Assembly (NCBI RefSeq): GCF_900113415.1
Contig: NZ_FOPH01000009.1
Location: forward strand, 1 to 64,000
Direction: 5' to 3'
Origin: Oribacterium sp. WCC10
GTDB lineage: Bacteria; Bacillota; Clostridia; Lachnospirales; Lachnospiraceae
DNA: 64,000 bases
Every line of letters starts with the position of its first letter. Within the stretch, counting starts at the first letter, position 1. Made by a program: the position numbers and the translations under genes. Positions 5,023 to 59,721 of the stretch are shown piece by piece. The notes below the pieces were generated by a model. The model was given only the letters and a program-made list of their open reading frames with translations. It searched no databases and was not told where the DNA came from.

Positions 5023-6426
5023 CTAAGCAGATTTCACCCCTTTAAAATGCTCCTTTGTGAGTTTTACCACCTTAGGGGATAAAACGAGTACCGCAATAAG
5101 GTTAGGTACTGCCATAAGACCATTGGCTGTATCCGCAATCTCCCAGACAAGGCTAAGCTGTACTGTTGCACCGACTACCACAAACATAACATATATAGCC
5201 TGATATACGATGATTGCTTTGGTACCGAAGATAAACTCCATACATCGAACACCGTAGAGGCTCCATGAAAGAAGTGTAGAAAAAGCAAAGAGCGTAATAC
5301 ATGAAGCTATAATGATAGATGCAACTCTACTGCCAAACGTTGTTGAAAAAGCCATGATAGTAAGGTCTGTACCTGCAGAATGACCATAGAACCCATCTGC
5401 ACATCCTGAAATAAGAATAGCCACAGCCGTAAGAGTACAGATAACTATGGTATCCATGAATACCTCAAAAATACCGTACATAGCCTGATGTACAGGATGG
5501 TCTACATCTGCTGCCGCATGGGCTATAGGTGCTGTGCCGAGTCCGGCTTCATTTGAGAATATACCTCTTCCAAAACCTGCTCTTGCCGCCTGTTTGATGG
5601 TGACACCCATAAGACCACCACTTATAGCCGAAGGAGAAAATGCCCCCTTAAAAATCTGTGAGAATACCCCGCCCAATGCATTGACATGAGTAATGATAAC
5701 CACAATGGAAGTAATGATATAAACCAGCGCCATGATAGGAACAAGCTTTTCAGTTACATTTCCGATACGCTGCATACCGCCGAAAAGCACAAGAATAGTG
5801 AGCATAGCTCCTATGATTCCTATGATCAGATAAATCCTCTGCATGTCAGAACCCGAGATTTCAGGATTGAAAGAACTGAAAACCGATCCTATAGATGTGG
5901 CGATAGTGTTAATCTGTGTCATGTTTCCTGTTCCAAGGGCTGCTACGCATCCAAAGATCGAGAAAATCACACCCAGCCATCTCCACTGACTTCCAAGGCC
6001 ATTAACAATGTAATACATGGGACCGCCCACAAAATCACCTTTATCATTTACTTCACGATAATGTACCGCAAGAATGATCTCGGCATACTTTGTACACATA
6101 CCAAAAAGAGCCGCAATCCACATCCAGAAAATAGCGCCCGGACCGCCAAGCGATATCGCTCCCGCAACTCCGGCAATATTGCCTGTGCCAACAGTTCCCG
6201 CCAGAGCTGTCGTAAGGGCCTGAATGGGCGTAAGGGCACCATCCTGGCTGGTTCTTTTTTCAAACAGTCTGCCAAGGGTATTCTTCATAATATACGGAAA
6301 CTTCACAAATTGAATGAATCCGAGTCTCAAGGTAATGAAAATACCGGTTCCTATCAGAAGTACAAGCGTAGGTACTCCCCAGACAAAAGAATTAACAGTG
6401 CCAGATATTTGATAAAACAGTTCCAC
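5023..6426 (-). CDS. sodium:alanine/glycine symporter (AlsT/AGCS family)
   Basis: 467 residues, about 10-11 membrane segments. Diagnostic family stretches are visible: 'TALAGTVGTGNIAGVAGAI', 'GGPGAIFWMW', 'KYAEIILAVHYRE', 'GGPMYYI' and 'GRGIFSNEAGLGTAPIAHA'. The family takes up L- or D-alanine and glycine with Na+. The start is a GTG at 6426 with AGGAG 7 nt upstream; longer in-frame versions add a non-homologous hydrophilic tail. The 600-nt region upstream holds the hairpin GCATAGC/GCTATGC (6529-6546) and a repeat cluster; no glycine riboswitch was recognised. Confidence 0.9.
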   Translation of the reverse strand: MELFYQISGTVNSFVWGVPTLVLLIGTGIFITLRLGFIQFVKFPYIMKNTLGRLFEKRTSQDGALTPIQALTTALAGTVGTGNIAGVAGAISLGGPGAIFWMWIAALFGMCTKYAEIILAVHYREVNDKGDFVGGPMYYIVNGLGSQWRWLGVIFSIFGCVAALGTGNMTQINTIATSIGSVFSSFNPEISGSDMQRIYLIIGIIGAMLTILVLFGGMQRIGNVTEKLVPIMALVYIITSIVVIITHVNALGGVFSQIFKGAFSPSAISGGLMGVTIKQAARAGFGRGIFSNEAGLGTAPIAHAAADVDHPVHQAMYGIFEVFMDTIVICTLTAVAILISGCADGFYGHSAGTDLTIMAFSTTFGSRVASIIIASCITLFAFSTLLSWSLYGVRCMEFIFGTKAIIVYQAIYVMFVVVGATVQLSLVWEIADTANGLMAVPNLIAVLVLSPKVVKLTKEHFKGVKSA

Positions 6427-6691
6427 TTTTACACTCCTATAATTCGGGAACGTAATCCCATTATTTCGCTTTACGTATGACACTGAAACCGAAAATCTCA
6501 AAAGGTTTCCTGATAACCATTCAAATCAGCATAGCTATCGCTATGCAAAAGTTCAATCCGAAGCGAAAACCAAAAACTTTTTTGAATTATCCCAGCGCGT
6601 CACAGCACTTTAAAGCATTAAAGGATAACTATAGCACATGTTTTATCCATTCGCCACCGTAATCATATAATGATGCAGTGGGCAAAAGTAC

Positions 6692-34675: not shown

Positions 34676-35965
34676 TCAGATAACGGGAAATACTGTCATG
34701 GTCCAGAATACGGAAATGATGCATCCAAGAACTGCGAACAGTGCGCCATGCTTCATCATATACGGAATGTCATATCCACCGAGTCCCATGATATATGGGG
34801 TTGCTGATGTAGACATCGGAGTCATAAATGCTGTCAGGCATGCTGCCTGAATAAGTATCATAAGTCCTACCGGATTTCCGCCCATGGCTGCGCAGGTTGC
34901 GATGGCAATCGGGTGGAATATAAGCATTGTACCTCTGTTTGACATGAACTGTGTAAGCACAAAGGGAAGGACAAAAAAGATAAATCCTAAAAGGTAATTG
35001 CTGTTTCCGAGGCTTCCGACAAATCCTGAAATGACGCTTCCGATGAACTCACCTGCACCTGTTGCTGAAAGAGCTCCGGCGATGGCATTTGAACCGACTA
35101 TAAGGAAAAGAATACCAAGAGGAAGTGACTTTCCTGCCTCCTTAGGATTAAGAACATTTGTGAGAATCATAAGGAGCGCACCGATTACCGTGATGGCCCA
35201 GCTGTCGAGACCAAGCTGATCGCTGAACATAAGTGCAAGGGCATCTCCAAAGAAAATGATGATGGATGCATACTCCTGGAACTTTGTAAGTGTGGACTCA
35301 CTCATCTTCTTTAATGCCATGTCCTGAACCTTCACAGGAGACTCTGAAGGAAGTCCCTTGATGCAGAATATTCCAAAATATACGATGGAAAGAATAAGCA
35401 TCGGAAGTCTTGCCTTCATTGGATCCGCAAGACCAACAGCAAAATCTGTATATCCGTAAGACTCAAGATAACCATTTAATTCTGCTGCAACTGTTGCTCC
35501 GGCACCTACAGGAAGGATACAGCAGGTAGAAATGATGGCTATACCTACCGGGAAAAGTACCTTTGTTGTGGGAATCCCCATCTCGGTTGCTGTTGCCATA
35601 AGCATAGGCGCTACGATGGAAAATACAACCACCGGACTCTGGATGAACTGGGAAAGGATAACACCGATGATGACATATCCAAGCACCATTTTGGTAACGC
35701 TTCCCTTTGAAAGATTTGAAATGCTCTTTGCCAGATTGATACAAAACTGTGTTTTGTTGAAACCCGCAGCTACAACGCACATACCGCCAACCATGATTAC
35801 ATTGGAATTGGCGAAGTATGAAAGTGCTTTTTTTGCCTCCAGACATCCTGTCAGTGTCATAAGCATCATGGATGTCAATGCTATGACTGCGAGGCTGTAC
35901 TTACCACTGCAGTAGCCGATGATGGTAAGCACAAAGATAATGAAACAGATCGTTAACAGACTCAT
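34676..35965 (-). CDS. SLC13/ion-transporter superfamily permease
   Basis: 429 residues, about 11-12 membrane helices. The overall pattern with 'SPVVVFSIVAPMLMATATEMG', 'LPVGAGATVAAELNG' and 'NRGTMLIFHPIAIATCAAMG' places it with divalent-anion:Na+ and citrate-type carriers (SLC13/CitMHS/ArsB superfamily). Substrate probably a di- or tricarboxylate. GGAGGG precedes the ATG. It is divergent from a LysR gene, which is its likely regulator. Confidence 0.8.
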   Translation of the reverse strand: MSLLTICFIIFVLTIIGYCSGKYSLAVIALTSMMLMTLTGCLEAKKALSYFANSNVIMVGGMCVVAAGFNKTQFCINLAKSISNLSKGSVTKMVLGYVIIGVILSQFIQSPVVVFSIVAPMLMATATEMGIPTTKVLFPVGIAIISTCCILPVGAGATVAAELNGYLESYGYTDFAVGLADPMKARLPMLILSIVYFGIFCIKGLPSESPVKVQDMALKKMSESTLTKFQEYASIIIFFGDALALMFSDQLGLDSWAITVIGALLMILTNVLNPKEAGKSLPLGILFLIVGSNAIAGALSATGAGEFIGSVISGFVGSLGNSNYLLGFIFFVLPFVLTQFMSNRGTMLIFHPIAIATCAAMGGNPVGLMILIQAACLTAFMTPMSTSATPYIMGLGGYDIPYMMKHGALFAVLGCIISVFWTMTVFPVI

Positions 35966-36028
35966 ATAGTCCCTCCTTCGTTTGATACGTCAGCCATCAA
36001 AATCAGGTACCCCTATGAGCCGACGCCC

Positions 36029-36058
36029 TATGACAAAATTTTTGTAAAACTTGTCATA
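36029..36058. promoter_or_regulatory. inverted repeat in the permease/LysR divergent gap
   Basis: TATGACAA (36029-36036) and TTGTCATA (36051-36058) are perfect 8-bp arms about 14 bases apart, 64 bp upstream of the permease start. It is a reasonable site for the divergent LysR protein. Confidence 0.5.
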
Positions 36059-36255
36059 AACATTGTTTTTTTATCATCTTTTGCTTACTATAAGGTAGAT
36101 TTAACTATTACACAAACGCATATATTTCATGTATACATTCCATAATGTAATTTTTAAATAAGCGAAATAATGTTTAAATTAATTTACGAATAAACCGTTT
36201 ATGGAGCCGATTAGATTTGTGTCATCAGCGAAATAATGACAAAGCGGAGATCATC

Positions 36256-53432: not shown

Positions 53433-54848
53433 TCACATCATACTATTAAGTCTTATATCAACCCTTCCATCCGAGCTAAATGTCATTCCTTCCGCATCCA
53501 TTAGTGTCTCATAAAGTGTACCGCTCAAAACATGCTCTCCGTCGTTAATGAATATTTCGAAAGAATAGCGGTCAAGAAGAAGGCGGAGTTTGAAGTCATC
53601 GTAATTTCCTATCCTTACTTTACGGTACTCGCAGATGGAAGCTGAACGTCCGCTGTTACTACGGTCAAGAATCAGATAACCGGATTTTTTATCATAAGAA
53701 AGGCTGACATGGATATCATCCTTTACGGCAAACTTCATCGTAAAGTTTGATGCATCCTTTACCTCTGCCGTCATATCCAGACATCTTCCGGAAATGCCAT
53801 CGACCTCGGCATCATCAGGTGCCGTAACCGTTCTTTCAACAGTACCTTTATATAATGTTTCAATCTCCCTGATGGGCTGCTGACAGATACGGCCATTCTT
53901 TACAGTCATTTCTCTCGGGAAACTCATCTGACCGAACCATTTCTGTTCCTCCGGGATACAGTTTCCGGAAGCAGGATCCTGCATCCAGCCAATAACGATT
54001 CTTCTTCCGTCAGCTGTCTCCATACTCTGGGGTGCATAATAATCAAAACCTGTGTCCAGGGGCTGGGCCTTCTCCGAATCCCCTACAAAAGCCATAACAC
54101 AGTTTCCGTTTCTGTAGCAGTCTTCTGTCTTTTTCATGTTCATGACTGAGACAGAAAGCACTTTTTCACCATCAAGTGTGAAGTAATCCGGACACTCCCA
54201 CATTATTCCCCATCTTCCGTCATTAGTCTTCAAAGTATCCTTATACTTCCAGTTAATGACATCCCCGGATTCATATCTGAGTACTGCGCCAAGTCCGTTT
54301 TTCAGCCTTGCAGCTATCACGCAATAGTACTTTCCGTCTTCAAACCAGATTTTAGGATCCCTGAAATCCCCTTTATCCGCGCCCTCCGGCATGTCCTTAG
54401 ATGTAAGTACAGGATTTGCCTCGTACTTTTCGTAATTCTCACCATCACCGAAAGCGAGACACTGTGTCTCCTCCCTGAAGAGCTCCTCACCCTTACCATG
54501 CTGGTTATGTGCTGTGTAGATCAGAAGATGCCTGCCATCCTTATCCGTGATGGCACTTCCCGAAAAGCAGCCTGTCTCGTAATCTTTATCCGGTGCAAGT
54601 GCAGCCTTTTCATAGTCCCAATGGATGAGATCCTTAGATGTCCAGTGTCCCCAGTGCATGCTGTCCCAGCTTGTACTGTATGGGTTGTACTGATAGAAAA
54701 GATGATATTTTCCATTGTAAAATGAAAAACCGTTTGGGTCATTTAACCAGCCGGCCTTAGCTGTCAGGTGGTAAGCAGGACGCTCGTCAGCACTTATATT
54801 TCGGCTGTATCTTTCTTCATAATCACGTGCTTTATCTAATGTATCCAA
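53433..54848 (-). CDS. GH32 beta-fructosidase / sucrose-6-phosphate hydrolase
   Basis: 471 residues. GH32 motifs: nucleophile 'GWLNDPNGF' (Asp37), 'FRDPKIW' (transition-state Asp) and 'WECPDYF' with the acid/base Glu; a C-terminal beta-sandwich follows. No signal peptide, so cytoplasmic hydrolysis of sucrose, sucrose-6-phosphate or short fructans. The start is TTG at 54848 with AAGGA about 10 nt upstream; no ATG fits. No transporter or LacI regulator is adjacent, which is unusual for a sucrose locus. Confidence 0.92.
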   Translation of the reverse strand: MDTLDKARDYEERYSRNISADERPAYHLTAKAGWLNDPNGFSFYNGKYHLFYQYNPYSTSWDSMHWGHWTSKDLIHWDYEKAALAPDKDYETGCFSGSAITDKDGRHLLIYTAHNQHGKGEELFREETQCLAFGDGENYEKYEANPVLTSKDMPEGADKGDFRDPKIWFEDGKYYCVIAARLKNGLGAVLRYESGDVINWKYKDTLKTNDGRWGIMWECPDYFTLDGEKVLSVSVMNMKKTEDCYRNGNCVMAFVGDSEKAQPLDTGFDYYAPQSMETADGRRIVIGWMQDPASGNCIPEEQKWFGQMSFPREMTVKNGRICQQPIREIETLYKGTVERTVTAPDDAEVDGISGRCLDMTAEVKDASNFTMKFAVKDDIHVSLSYDKKSGYLILDRSNSGRSASICEYRKVRIGNYDDFKLRLLLDRYSFEIFINDGEHVLSGTLYETLMDAEGMTFSSDGRVDIRLNSMM

Positions 54849-54950
54849 GGTATTTAATTCCTTTCATGATGTAATCATTAACATACTTAATTCAGAATTA
54901 TAGACTACGACAAAAAATTAATCATCCATTTATTGATATAAGTGTCATGA

Positions 54951-55077
54951 CTGGTGGCAGATTCCGTAGGAATCTGGCATATAGCACCAGCCCTTCGCGA
55001 AGCGAACTAAATGGACTGACGTTCCCAGAAGCGCAAAGCGCGAAACGATTCGATATCGACTTTTGACACCACATCAT
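54951..55077 (+). repeat. structured intergenic repeat, copy A
   Basis: Nested stems: CTGGTG/CACCAG enclosing CAGATTCC-GTA-GGAATCTG (54958-54976), then CAGCCC...GGACTG with TTCGCGAA inside, then GCGC-AAA-GCGC, ending in CGATATCGAC and TTTTGACACCACATCAT. About 105 nt correspond base by base to copy B at 56574-56687 in the opposite orientation, with stem changes that preserve pairing. Confidence 0.75.
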
Positions 55078-55116
55078 TCTATGATTTTAAACCGCATTTC
55101 CGTTTGAAATCCCCTG

Positions 55117-56463
55117 CTAACTATATACCTTACGATAAATCCTGTAAAAATATATCATCTCTGCGATACCTGTGATTGTCCATGAGAAAATATACAGAAG
55201 ATATAGCGATGTAACTGTTTTAAAATATGCAAATACCGTAAATATCCACAAAATCCTGAACACACAGGAGCCAAGGATCACTATGATCGTCGGGATGAGA
55301 CTCTTACCTAGCCCTCGTGATGCAGCAATAGAGCCATCCATAAACGCAGAAAAGCCATAGGACAAAGCCATGATGGAAAGACGATACATACCTGCTTCAA
55401 CAACTGCCGGATCGGTAGTAAACACTCTTAAAAACGGTACTCCGAAAATGTACAGACTCACACCGATGATACTTCCGATTACAAAGCTGTAGAACAGAGT
55501 TATATGATATATCTTTTTGACCCTTTCCATCTGTTTTGCACCGTAATTCTGCCCGATGAAGCTTGAACCCGCAGTGTAAAATGCAGCCATAACATCGTAA
55601 TCAAGTCCATCTGCATTTTGCGCAGCTGCCGCACCTGCCACTGTGATGGCATCAAATGTATTGACTCCGTACTGGACAAAAAGATTGGCAATCTGGAAAA
55701 TGGCATTAGCGATACCGGAAGTCAGACTGATGGGAAGCATCCGCTTTGCAAATTTCTTATCAAAATGCATACCTCTGAATCTTAAACCGATCATAGACTT
55801 CTCACGAATGATAGAGAATAAAATACAAAAGGCTGAAAAATACTGCGAGATAACACTTGCAAGCGCAACCCCAACCACATCCAGATTCATAACTATGACA
55901 AAGTAAAGATTAAGCAGGATATTGATGAAACCTGATATGGTCAAAAACATCAAAGGCTTACGTGTATTTCCCGAGGCGCTGTAGGCGGCGTTTCCGAAGT
56001 TGAATATAGACAGCGCAGGAATTCCGAGAAAATAAATCTTTAGATAATTCATAGCGCCCGTGAGCAAAGACTGTTTAGTGCTGAGCAGTGAAAGAACACT
56101 AAACTTTGTGGCTTCGCTGACAATCATCGTCAGAATACCGATCATCATACAGAGGATAAATGCTGTGAATACAGCACGTTTAACCGCTTCCTCTTTTCCT
56201 CTGCCTATGGCATAAGCCACAGTTACATTAACTCCGCTTGAAATACCTATAATGAAAGTTGTATATAGAGTCACCAGCGTGGTTGTGGATCCGACAGCAC
56301 CCAAAGCTATGGGTCCCGCAAATCTACCGACAACAGCTATATCTGAAATATTGAAAAGAATCTGCAGTAGATTGGAAGCTATCAGCGGCAGACTGAACAT
56401 CAAAATGCCGCTCCAGAGAGGGACCTGTGTCAGATTTTTAGCTTCATTTGTTTTATTATTCAT
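55117..56463 (-). CDS. MATE-family multidrug/cation antiporter
   Basis: 448 residues, 12 membrane helices in two homologous halves: 'PLWSGILMFSLPLIASNLLQ', 'DIAVVGRFAGPIALGAVGST' and 'SGVNVTVAYAIGRGKEEAVKRAV' (in part) in the first, 'AAFYTAGSSFIGQNYGAK' in the second. It exports cationic compounds with Na+ or H+. The ribosome site (AGGGATGA) is fair. The gene lies between inverted copies of the structured repeat. Confidence 0.93.
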   Translation of the reverse strand: MNNKTNEAKNLTQVPLWSGILMFSLPLIASNLLQILFNISDIAVVGRFAGPIALGAVGSTTTLVTLYTTFIIGISSGVNVTVAYAIGRGKEEAVKRAVFTAFILCMMIGILTMIVSEATKFSVLSLLSTKQSLLTGAMNYLKIYFLGIPALSIFNFGNAAYSASGNTRKPLMFLTISGFINILLNLYFVIVMNLDVVGVALASVISQYFSAFCILFSIIREKSMIGLRFRGMHFDKKFAKRMLPISLTSGIANAIFQIANLFVQYGVNTFDAITVAGAAAAQNADGLDYDVMAAFYTAGSSFIGQNYGAKQMERVKKIYHITLFYSFVIGSIIGVSLYIFGVPFLRVFTTDPAVVEAGMYRLSIMALSYGFSAFMDGSIAASRGLGKSLIPTIIVILGSCVFRILWIFTVFAYFKTVTSLYLLYIFSWTITGIAEMIYFYRIYRKVYS

Positions 56464-56520
56464 GTATATATCATCCCTGACCTATCTGTACAAAATCAAA
56501 AAGACATTATACTGCGGAAA

Positions 56521-56554
56521 AACAAAAGAAGCACCACATATGTGGTGCCCTTTT
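56521..56554. terminator. bidirectional terminator after the RND gene
   Basis: GCACCACATATGTGGTGC (56531-56548) is a perfect 18-bp palindrome with CTTTT on one side and AAAAGAA on the other. Confidence 0.75.
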
Positions 56555-56573
56555 CAAATAAATCACTCCGCAC

Positions 56574-56687
56574 GGAACGATTCGATACTGGATCGCTTCG
56601 CGCTATGCGCTCACTGGGAACGTCAGCCCATTTGAATTCGCTTCGCGAAGGGCTGACGCTACATGCCAGGTCCTTCGGACCTGCCAC
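56574..56687 (-). repeat. structured intergenic repeat, copy B
   Basis: Stems on the minus strand: CAGGTCC-GAA-GGACCTG (56667-56683), CGTCAGCCC/GGGCTGACG (56631-56658), GCGC-ATA-GCGC, then CGATCCAGTATCGAATCGTT. It corresponds to copy A with paired substitutions in the first stem. Its first part lies inside the RND gene and supplies that gene's stop codon. Confidence 0.75.
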
Positions 56688-59600
56688 AAAAAGCGTTCCT
56701 CTCATGTTTCGGCGTCATTACAGAATAATAAACCGGCAGCATCAGAAGACAAAGCAGTGTGGATGCTGTAAGTCCGCCGATATTTACTATGGCGAGTCCC
56801 TGATTCATGGAGCCTGCATTACCAAACGCCATGGCCATCGGAATCATCGATATAACGGTTGTCAGAGTAGTCATAAGGATAGGTCTGATACGTGTAGCTC
56901 CTGCTTCTATGAGAGCTTCATCAAAATCCATAGTACCTCTATACTGATTTGCCGTATCAACGTAGAGAATACCGTTATTTACAGCGGTACCTATGAGCAT
57001 CAGGAATCCAACCATGGATACCATACTGATAGAGCAGTCTGTAAGCCAGAGCAACGAGAAAGAACCTATCAGAGAAAAAGGTATGGTAGTCATGACCATC
57101 AATGAGTATTTGGGAGACTCGAACTGTGATGCCATCACTACAAATACCAGAAATACTGCTTCAAGAAGAGCCATCATCAGATTCCCCATTTCTCTGGACC
57201 GTGTCTTATCCATGGTACTTTTACCTATGGTCACTGTGCCTGTGAGATTAGGTTTTACTGTTTCTTCAAGTATCTGTTTGGGCGATTCCTTGGTAGCTTT
57301 ATCCGAGTACTCTGCTGTTATTGTAACATTATACTGCTTGTCTGCCCGGGCTATAGATGCCGGTGAATCCACATAGTGAACATCAGCTACATCAGTCAGG
57401 ACAACCTGACCGCCGTTTCCGGCACTTAAAAGGATGTTCTTTATCTCATAAAGAGAATCGTATTGATCAACAGGGTATTCAACTTTTACATCCGTGTCCT
57501 CTCCATTTACCGGAATACTTGTCACTGTTGATCCCGTAAGTATTGACCTCAGTGTACTACCTATGGTTCCTGCCGTAAGGCCGTAGGATTTGGCTTTAAT
57601 GGCATCTACTGTAACCTCTACTACAGGGGAAGAATTGTCTATGCTTGAATGAACTCTTGCTATATCGTCACGTGTTTCAATGTCTGATACTATTTCATTT
57701 ACGACTTCTTTCACCTCATCATAGTCCGCCCCCTGAATCATTACTTCATAGTTATCTCCGGAAGAACTCATCATACTCATGGAAGATTTCATTTCCACGG
57801 AAATATCACAATTCGTAACATCCGAAAGCTCCTTCTTCCATTTGTTTACGACATCCTTTGTTTCCATGCTTCTGTCATCTTTTAGAGTTGCAGCGATAGT
57901 CGCCTCAGAATTTCCGCTTCCACCGGTAAACTCTGTCCTGTAATGTTCCAGATCCGGATCCTGTTTAATGATTTCTTCTATTTCATCTAATGCAGGTTCT
58001 ATCTTCTTTATTTCCGTACCGGGTCTTGTATTCACAGTAATGCTTATCTCACCCTGATCATCTGATGGCATGAGTTCAATGGTAAGTGTTGTCGCAAGTA
58101 AAAGGGAACCAACGAGAAGCAGCACAGAGGTAATCATAACTGTTTTTTTCTTCGGAAGGATCTTCTGCATCAAAACTCTATAGCCGTCCTGAAGTTCCTT
58201 CACAGAGTCGTTAAGCATTGCCTTTGTTTTTTCCTCAGGCTTATACATCATGTAGCAAAGAGGAACTACTGTGATAGCAGAGATAAGCGATGCAGACATA
58301 CAGAAAACAATGGTGAATCCCAAAGGTCCGAACATCTGACCTGTCATACCGGAAAGCAGTCCCAGAGGCAGAAATACTACACAGGTGGTTATGGTTGAGG
58401 CTATAACCGACATAGCCACTATTCCTGTTCCATCCAAAGCATCACGTGCGTATTCCAAAAGTCCCTGTTTTTCTTTATTTTTAGCAGTAACTCTGAAACA
58501 ACTCTCCAGCACTACTATGGAGTTATCTACCATCATACCGACTCCCAGAGTCAGCGCGGAGAGGGTGATCATATTGAGGGAATACCCCATCGAACTCATA
58601 AGTATCAGTGCAGCCAGTATGGATGCAGGTATAGAACTTCCTACAATGAGGGATGCCTTTATATCTCCGAAAAACAGATATATGATGATCATGGAAATGA
58701 CTATGGCAAGGATAAGTGTCTTTACCACATCATTGATTGAGTCAGTTATATTTTCGGAGGTATCGCTGATTACGGTAATTTCAAGGGCATTATCCTTTTT
58801 TGAAAGCGTGTCTATGGTGTTCCTTACTTTCTCTGAAAGTTTCATTGAAGACGCACTTTGCTGCCTTGATATAGAGATGGTTATGGTATCCTCTCCATCA
58901 TATTTTGCAATACTGTCATTCTTTTCATTAGCATAATTAACTGTTGCCACATCCTGAAGATATACAACATCATTCTGGTTTTTGGTTGTAAGCGGAATAT
59001 CCCCGAGAGCTTCAAAGGAATCATATTTCATTCTGGTGGAGACCGAAAGCTCCTGACTTCCATCCAGAGTACTCCCGGCCGGGATGGTCGCATCCGCTGC
59101 TGAAATGTCTCCGGCTATGGATGACATAGTTACTCCGTACTGAAGCATTTTTTCTTCATTTAATTCTATAGAGATATACTGTTTGTTTCCTCCATTTATC
59201 TTTATATCAGCTACCTCAGGTATCTTTTCGAATTCCGGAGACAGTTTATTTTCCACATAATTGTATAGATTTGCTGACTCCTTTTTGTTCTGTATCATGA
59301 GAGTCATATCCGAACCTGAGTTCATATTCATCTCAAATATGGATGGTGTCTTGCAGCCATCCGGAAGCTCTCTCGAAACCTGATCAACCTTCTTTTTGAG
59401 ATCATCATACGCCTTATCCATATCCGTTCCGTAATCATATGAAAGCATGATCATGGAAGATCCTTCACTTGATTTTGATGTTATGTTATCAAGACCGGAA
59501 AGAGCGCTGATATTGTCTTCTATAGGCTTTGTCACAAGTTCCGCAACATCCTCCGGGCTGGCTCCGGAATAATATGTCATTATAACCATCATGGACATAT

Positions 59601-59721
59601 CCATATCAGGCGTAAGTTCAAGGGTAGTATTGAAAACTGATGATATACCAAAAACTATAAGGCATAGGATTGCCAGTACAGCCGAGACAGGTCTCTTTAA
59701 AACCAATTTAGTTATTCCCAT
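56659..59721 (-). CDS. RND-family efflux permease (HAE1/AcrB-like)
   Basis: 1020 residues with the 12-helix RND plan: helix 1 'RPVSAVLAILCLIVFGISSV', two large extracytoplasmic loops, central helices with 'GVGMMVDNSIVVLESCFR' (the paired Asp of the proton/ion relay region) and 'GTAVNNGILYVDTANQYR' in the second half. ATG at 59721 with GGGGGA upstream, overlapping the adaptor gene by 14 bp. It forms a pump with the adaptor encoded just before; with no outer membrane it exports across one membrane. The last residues (CGRSEGPGM) are encoded by repeat copy B. Confidence 0.93.
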   Translation of the reverse strand: MGITKLVLKRPVSAVLAILCLIVFGISSVFNTTLELTPDMDMSMMVIMTYYSGASPEDVAELVTKPIEDNISALSGLDNITSKSSEGSSMIMLSYDYGTDMDKAYDDLKKKVDQVSRELPDGCKTPSIFEMNMNSGSDMTLMIQNKKESANLYNYVENKLSPEFEKIPEVADIKINGGNKQYISIELNEEKMLQYGVTMSSIAGDISAADATIPAGSTLDGSQELSVSTRMKYDSFEALGDIPLTTKNQNDVVYLQDVATVNYANEKNDSIAKYDGEDTITISISRQQSASSMKLSEKVRNTIDTLSKKDNALEITVISDTSENITDSINDVVKTLILAIVISMIIIYLFFGDIKASLIVGSSIPASILAALILMSSMGYSLNMITLSALTLGVGMMVDNSIVVLESCFRVTAKNKEKQGLLEYARDALDGTGIVAMSVIASTITTCVVFLPLGLLSGMTGQMFGPLGFTIVFCMSASLISAITVVPLCYMMYKPEEKTKAMLNDSVKELQDGYRVLMQKILPKKKTVMITSVLLLVGSLLLATTLTIELMPSDDQGEISITVNTRPGTEIKKIEPALDEIEEIIKQDPDLEHYRTEFTGGSGNSEATIAATLKDDRSMETKDVVNKWKKELSDVTNCDISVEMKSSMSMMSSSGDNYEVMIQGADYDEVKEVVNEIVSDIETRDDIARVHSSIDNSSPVVEVTVDAIKAKSYGLTAGTIGSTLRSILTGSTVTSIPVNGEDTDVKVEYPVDQYDSLYEIKNILLSAGNGGQVVLTDVADVHYVDSPASIARADKQYNVTITAEYSDKATKESPKQILEETVKPNLTGTVTIGKSTMDKTRSREMGNLMMALLEAVFLVFVVMASQFESPKYSLMVMTTIPFSLIGSFSLLWLTDCSISMVSMVGFLMLIGTAVNNGILYVDTANQYRGTMDFDEALIEAGATRIRPILMTTLTTVISMIPMAMAFGNAGSMNQGLAIVNIGGLTASTLLCLLMLPVYYSVMTPKHERNAFCGRSEGPGM

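Follow-up and report, generated by a model that had tools for sequence, protein, structure and literature searches.

The window analysed here is the whole 64,000-nucleotide stretch (positions 1–64,000) from the genome of Oribacterium sp. WCC10 (G000). Within it, two inverted copies of a multi-stem element lie on either side of a MATE transporter gene, which raises the questions of what this element is and whether its place beside genes has a meaning. Inspection of copies A (54951–55077, plus strand) and B (56572–56690, minus strand) confirmed the positions and common segments claimed in a sequence-only reading of this DNA, and also that their first stems (P1) differ in letters and pair completely within each copy. 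When up to three mismatches are allowed, the 18-mer AGCCCTTCGCGAAGCGAA is found at two places in the window, compared to a mean of 0.03 in shuffled sequence. The fold of 54951–55077 on the plus strand (-34.4 kcal/mol, z -1.94) was equalled by 3 of 200 shuffles, so copy A is unremarkable by itself. The fold of 56555–56690 on the minus strand, which spans B, reached -58.0 kcal/mol (z -4.32) and was equalled by none of 200. As a BLAST query, B identified 19 places in the genome and matched A at 83% identity.

The same reading had the two copies bracket the MATE gene. Both are indeed present, and the window contains a third copy. B is common to the congener G015 whereas A is absent from the equivalent place; the bracketing therefore looks incidental. 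In G015 little sequence separates the GH32 and MATE genes, and a segment of about 207 bp (54928–55134 of the window) has no counterpart. This exceeds the element, so the difference could be either a gain in G000 or a loss in G015. Copy B overlaps the 3' end of an RND permease gene (56659–59721), since its GTAG linker supplies the stop codon, and the rule applied below does not count it as a leader because MATE starts 150 nt behind its core. Copy A resembles a short version of type III, with inverted ends that are longer in locus L004 (AGTGTCAAAAGTC..GACTTTTGACACT). We infer that A and B are free copies in larger repeat units, part of a mobile pool and not working leaders. The third copy is of the leader type (R1 E 0.00124 at 35981–36060; R2 E 9.5e-8), and the best NCBIfam match of the gene behind it is a DASS anion symporter, below the cut-off of that family. 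A marginal look-alike (6424–6517, minus strand, R2 E 0.685) has ..TAATGGGATTACGTTCCCGAATTATAGGAG ahead of a GTG and is perhaps a decayed leader.

Table 1. Coordinates of element copies and neighbouring features in the window, and of tandem copies in three other genomes.
Feature	Position	Strand	Basis or remark
GH32 gene, beyond copy A	53433..54848	-	PF00251/PF08244
GTGTCA, inverted repeat of TGACAC; left end of larger free element	54942..54947	+	sequence
Copy A core: P1, linker ATAGC, P2/P3, GTTCCCAG	54951..55028	+	R1 80.0 bits, E 2.3e-19; sequence
Copy A 3' tail: GCGC hairpin, CGATTCGATATCG, TGACAC	55029..55077	+	resembles tails of free copies L003/L025, L004/L021
TGACAC, right partner of GTGTCA at 54942–54947	55064..55069	+	sequence
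MATE transporter gene, between A and B	55117..56463	-	PF01554
Copy B 3' tail (GAGCGC..GCGCGAAGCGATCCAGTATCG)	56572..56613	-	sequence, BLAST
Copy B core: P1 CAGGTCC/GGACCTG, linker GTAGC, P2 AGCGTCAGCCC/GGGCTGACGTT, P3 TTCGC/GCGAA	56614..56690	-	R1 86.9 bits, E 2.2e-21; fold
TAG in the GTAG linker of B, stop codon of RND permease gene	56659..56661	-	ORF list; PF00873
Third copy, leader type: element, SD GAAGGAGGG, ATG 35965–35963	35963..36060	-	R1, R2, sequence
Tandem copies before ABC permease gene, four including partial ones	G015:C3:36339-36614
Tandem copies before ABC permease gene, three	G016:C81:92004-92247
Tandem copies before ABC permease gene, two	G011:C6:33200-33360

Oriented and aligned, 17 of the 19 places share one architecture; of the two omitted, L011 and L019, one is fragmentary and the other contains an insert. 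A P1 hairpin (GTG.CAG../..CTG.CAT), decayed or absent in a few copies (L010, L016), is followed by the linker GTAGC and by P2 (AGCGTCAGCCC/GGGCTGACGTT) with P3 (TTCGC-NAN-GCGAA) stacked on its 5' strand. The 3' side of P2 has a bulge (..TCAAAT) and then GTTCCCA, and the element measures about 80–95 bp. Behind P2/P3 the aligned leaders carry a short tail, in many cases CCCAA, that leads into the Shine-Dalgarno (SD) site. Free copies of type II start with CCAGCCTCGCCA and finish with CACCGCCTGG and an extra hairpin; those of type III lie within a larger unit with the inverted ends seen in L004, where the terminal repeats are 13 bp. No terminal inverted repeats were noticed in leaders during an unsystematic look. 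Free copies occur in both orientations. In the WCC10 genome, every flanking gene is on the opposite strand in 16 of 18, and antisense insertion was considered as a rule for free copies. It is not general: across eight genomes, the flanks of 82 free copies were '--' in 36, '++' in 25, '+-' in 10, and '-+' in 4, with an end missing in the remaining 7. Variants include an extra hairpin-like insert in P3, with the rest of the motif and the start codon behind it kept (L256, L258, L260, and L263 in G247), and replacement of P3 by a longer module, CCCATACCTACGAC.. or CCCAGTTATCTCG.. (L306, L307, L308, L310, and L313 in G232). Behind one type II copy, on the other strand, there is a T-box-like match (L005, 1633–1961, minus strand) of 69.5 bits, compared to a gathering score of 93.

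Model R1, which has 26 pairs and includes neither a Shine-Dalgarno site nor a start codon, identified 66 places in the WCC10 genome at E ≤ 10, 49 of them at E < 0.01, so the further copies anticipated from A and B do exist. At E ≤ 0.01, matches occurred in 9 of 61 genomes (G000, 7 of 16 congeners, and one marginal match in G034); the 52 genomes without matches served as the control. Carriers thus make up 8 of 17 Oribacterium genomes, including G000, with 9–44 matches per positive congener under strict filters. The G034 match (E 0.0078), the only one among the other 44 relatives, was not recovered by a second model, R2, built from 76 leaders and including SD and ATG. A distribution restricted to Oribacterium, as suggested by R1, was overturned by R2, which found the element at E ≤ 0.001 in at least 8 of 297 other Lachnospiraceae genera sampled (299 genomes), a lower bound because 13 candidates were scored per genome. 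Full R2 scans at E ≤ 0.01 returned 8 matches in G140, 1 in G169, 19 in G217, 20 in G232, 34 in G247, 4 in G288, 1 in G300, and 8 in G305. Stems in other genera may be wholly different (e.g., GGCCACGCC/GGCGTGGCTC in G232), and most of the 76 other-genus R2 matches examined keep the architecture, a G(T/C)AG linker, and AT ahead of the 3' arm of P2. A pattern scan of a sequence collection gave 10 stretches, from Oribacterium sp. P6A1, Lachnospiraceae bacterium JC7, Oribacterium MAG RUI013, and an uncultured 'Eubacterium' MAG. Phages, plasmids, and viral contigs gave no match to one exact pattern and one 119-base query, searches of limited reach.

Position relative to genes was examined in 162–163 Oribacterium matches: 50 from G000 (E up to 0.0102) and the best 113 of 138 from congeners, the latter representing 100 loci among the R1 matches listed. 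The 25 left out score lower; the majority represent the other strand of an included element, and one is a partial array member. Of the 163 matches, 80 were classed as leaders and 83 as free. Sense-orientation copies ending 12–20 nt upstream of a start codon are far more common than in controls. Seventy of 162 copies end at this distance from an ATG with a purine-rich SD site. On the antisense side this holds for 1 of 162, and among random positions in the same loci for 75 of 4,860. Under a looser rule, leaders number 80 of 162, compared to 5 of 162 and 433 of 4,860 (8.9%), leaving about half of the copies (82 of 162) as non-leaders. In G000, 32 of 50 copies are leaders, all at 12–20 nt. In other genera, 40 of 76 R2 matches examined end at a start, a count biased by the SD and ATG contained in R2, and the position was found in 0 of 8 matches examined in G305 and 2 of 12 in G217. 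For G232 we used BLAST with a bare 84-nt core lacking the SD site; its 34 places form 30 loci, 26 with a right end, of which 20 have an SD site and a start within 15–25 nt. In three of the other six (L294, L309, and L312) further copies or pieces of the element follow.

An upstream open reading frame of at least 100 amino acids is co-directional in 60 of 80 leaders, and 12 of these 60 begin 5–43 nt behind it, so leaders also occupy short, possibly intra-operon gaps. The constant is therefore the SD site and not the distance to an upstream promoter. Predicted accessibility of the SD site was higher with the native element (0.535) than with the element shuffled (0.449; p 1.4e-6). The comparison used 76 of the 79 leaders that are spaced by more than 8 nt and contains related copies, so that leaders are not all independent. 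Taken with the evidence below, we consider it probable that these are small mobile elements that turn into structured 5' leaders and act in cis on RNA.

Proteins encoded behind 30 of the 32 leaders in G000 were compared to NCBIfam, and those of L093 and L095 to Pfam only. At 1e-15, 22 of 30 matched NCBIfam, with nothing for L030, L033, L034, L036, L040, L042, L077, and L083. With '-like' marking scores below the family cut-off, the genes are rpiB, eno, a TRAP permease, DctP, gluconate 5-dehydrogenase, a biotin carrier subunit-like gene (bccp), DegV, a LysR-like gene, glycerol-3-phosphate oxidase-like, an M3 peptidase, a branched-chain ABC binding protein-like gene, glucarate dehydratase-like, ilvD, fructose-6-phosphate aldolase/talC, deoD, a Na/Pi symporter, glnA-like, a CBS protein-like gene, a DASS symporter-like gene, 5'-nucleotidase-like, a frame matching truB and ribF, and choline-binding repeat proteins. 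Leader genes in other genomes include gap, araA-like, queA, ppk, mtaB, plsX, nrdR, D-lactate dehydrogenase-like, atpC, and galE; the protein behind L242 resembles InfB by eye, with no NCBIfam match. The genes have no single pathway in common.

The gene list bears on a possible alternative, to which we give some weight, in which a trans-acting RNA-binding protein (by a Csr-like logic) or a ligand (as in a riboswitch) regulates genes through the leaders, with the free copies as decoys. Such a regulon would account for the near-constant distance to the SD site, the recurring letters of linker and bulge, the sequence 'dialects' of the element that are specific to genera, the tandem modules that three species have ahead of one ABC permease gene (Table 1), and the presence of several genes of central metabolism (eno, gap, rpiB, talC, glnA-like). 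It fits poorly with downstream genes as diverse as truB, queA, deoD, ilvD, TRAP transporters, plsX, and nrdR, and with a set of element-bearing genes that differs among congeners.

The family is dispersed and mobile, in agreement with an earlier suggestion of a MITE-like structured repeat. In G232, eight copies are 100% identical over 81–84 nt with both flanks unrelated, and the ends of the identical unit coincide with those of the RNA motif. Presence or absence varies at eno, bccp, and truB as well as at copy A. At eno, the element lies between ACCAAAGAG (or a near match) and AAAGAGG in seven genomes, including G000, while G010 has ACCAAAGAGAAAGAGGTAAATAACATG with nothing between; either a gain of the element or its loss in G010 would fit. 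At bccp, it lies between cccttatgta and gtgagaggta in G000, and the site is empty in 6 of 6 congeners; by parsimony this is a gain. Both empty sites adjoin the SD site. At truB, the element is present in G000, partly present in G015, and absent from five others. At degV, it is present in G000, with decayed look-alikes, judged by eye, in G011, G015, and G016 and none in G004 and G014. For deoD, ilvD, talC, the L083 gene, and the Na/Pi symporter gene, it was found in G000 alone among the genomes examined, where the other intergenic regions align poorly by eye. Reading bccp, eno, L292, and truB by eye gave no consistent target-site duplication: there is none at bccp, both AAAGAG copies pre-exist in the empty site of eno, and direct repeats are seen at L292 and at truB of G015. 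The search for a mobiliser, which covered the Y1 transposase family, found none. Tandem arrays with a period of about 81–84 nt occur in G015, G016, G011, and G247; L251 (G247:C14:77024-77379) contains four copies with an 84-nt period.

The identical copies in unrelated flanks, with unit and motif ends coinciding, the presence/absence sites, the tandem arrays, and the free copies in both orientations would all be expected of a purely selfish MITE-like element, with a fold that serves mobilisation through a DNA or RNA intermediate, an enzyme that targets purine-rich SD-like sequence, and no gain for the host. We regard this reading as unlikely, and what stands against it comes from leaders at fixed sites. 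Between orthologous leaders, compensatory changes preserve the pairing, including at eno, where double changes occur across seven genomes with aligning flanks; a dead copy should decay. In 43 pairs of orthologous sequences (21 from eno), which again contain related copies, 185 of 269 altered base pairs still pair. Where both sides have changed, 81 are paired and 11 unpaired, and slid controls keep 27%–53%. If the fold served mobility alone, compensatory change in place at eno would be hard to explain, although gene conversion could contribute and could mimic some of these changes because copies within one genome resemble each other.

Covariation is also seen across the family. Of the 80 leaders, 76 were aligned; those omitted are one with a GTG at 6 nt, one ahead of a leuD-like gene whose start is ambiguous, one partial match, and one short member of an array. 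In this alignment, 26 of 27 pairs changed on both sides, and none of 500 shuffles attained the observed score. Paired cells amount to 83%, falling to 34%–44% once partners are slid. A first tree-based test, in which substitutions were re-placed by parsimony, gave no significant pairs. Under a null simulated on the tree (F81, per-column rates), picked after that result was seen, 6 of 2,850 column pairs were significant at E ≤ 0.05. Five of them belong to the drawn structure; the other one, columns 13–43, is an undrawn P1 pair that forms in 61 of 72 leaders with six pair types and is G.G in A and B. The claims drawn from A and B, that copies covary and that folding is under selection, are upheld by pairing kept through compensatory changes, including between orthologous copies.

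A third alternative is that the element is of the REP/BIME type and moved by a TnpA-REP (RAYT, Y1) transposase, as the proposed REP-type target implied. In REP elements, an imperfect hairpin has GTAG at its base. The consensus of the leader alignment has a similar tetranucleotide, and in most copies GTAG or GCAG is directly 5' of the imperfect P2/P3 hairpin. However, 9 of 16 carriers (G000, G010, G016, G169, G217, G232, G247, G300, and G305) have no match to PF01797 at E ≤ 0.1, and they include G232, which holds the freshest copies and evidence of recent spread. Of the remaining carriers, G011 has one sub-threshold match and six exceed the cut-off (G004, G012, G014, G015, G140, and G288). This makes the explanation very improbable, although for those six carriers it is only weakened because they do have a Y1 transposase. 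Y1 matches number 31 in G004, often at contig ends, and 10 in G014. An intrinsic terminator, attenuator, or sRNA gene would fit the extra hairpin of free type II copies and can be practically dismissed, because aligned leaders have a short tail and an SD site after P2/P3, with no T run by eye, and short gaps behind co-directional genes contain leaders too.

Returning to mobile elements that become cis-acting leaders, the steps may be as follows. The mobile element of about 80–95 bp would be transcribed into RNA that folds into P1 plus P2/P3, and an inserted copy would form the last part of the 5' UTR. Its self-contained fold would keep the SD site open and insulated from upstream sequence and may tune translation or mRNA stability. 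An insertion at an SD site could be tolerated or useful and then be retained by selection, and a factor common to the copies may read the element. Since the copies, in bacteria of gut and rumen, very often sit directly before ribosome-binding sites, the results suggest portable control regions for protein synthesis. More tentatively, these may be transposable 5' UTRs aimed at SD sites that place unrelated genes by the dozen under one post-transcriptional control, with co-evolved dialects in each genus and free copies as the source and perhaps as decoys. The sequence-only reading thus stands as to a structured MITE-like repeat with a selected fold and no Rfam match and is not supported as to a REP target; it had not seen the leader role (80 of 162 copies). 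Bacterial interspersed repeats are usually regarded as passive, or as accidents near genes. The present family has a sense placement at near-constant spacing beside the SD sites of dozens of genes, and its fold is kept at orthologous sites. With empty sites displaying the state without the element, two questions become testable: can a mobile element spread by bringing genes a finished translational leader and assemble a post-transcriptional network, and which enzyme is able to target a ribosome-binding site?

We compared the element to known structured RNAs. No family of Rfam release 15 reached threshold in the window, copies A and B included, or on any of the leaders examined. Among 18 loci from G000 and 20 from other genera, no motif match exceeded the gathering threshold except RF01699 (Clostridiales-1 RNA) over P1 of L004. 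Matches above threshold elsewhere in these 38 loci were tRNAs, and those below threshold that overlap the motif were EF3314_EF3315 on L005 and MIR861 on L224. No literature on the element was found among openly accessible papers, preprints aside.

Clostridiales-1 resembles the element as a structured repeat in the same genomes, with 45 matches at E ≤ 0.01 in G000 and matches in 15 of 17 genomes of the genus, including G000 (10 of 17 above the cut-off). It overlaps the 5' part of the motif in L004, where the match (55.3 bits) lies in the larger unit, and in G015:C22. The column headings of the table in Weinberg 2010 are reportedly RNA, cis-regulatory, and riboswitch. The Clostridiales-1 model and structure differ from those of the element, and it is also abundant in congeners without R1 matches (65 in G007, 39 in G005). 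Its line in that table reads 'y n n' (PMC2864571). In Oribacterium (G000, G005, G007, G015, G016, and others) it acts as an interspersed repeat with up to 65 matches per genome, including tandem arrays at G007:C10:82001-82517 and G005:C1:498576-499248.

Riboswitches and protein-binding leaders share with the element a structured RNA adjoining the SD site and conserved by covariation, in a 5' UTR position that is predicted here. They differ in that the element is mobile, precedes many unrelated genes, and varies in presence among congeners. Closest in kind, by their description, are the BOX, RUP, and SPRITE repeats of Streptococcus pneumoniae, which are small, scattered non-coding repeats predicted to form strong RNA structure; they spread in the past and can be co-transcribed with genes (PMC3049150). 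Those repeats are over-represented between convergent genes (Table 1 of PMC3049150), whereas the element described here often lies in sense just before the SD site, with its fold kept at orthologous sites. The element is a mobile structured repeat of a known kind, with an unusual place and a putative role as a leader.
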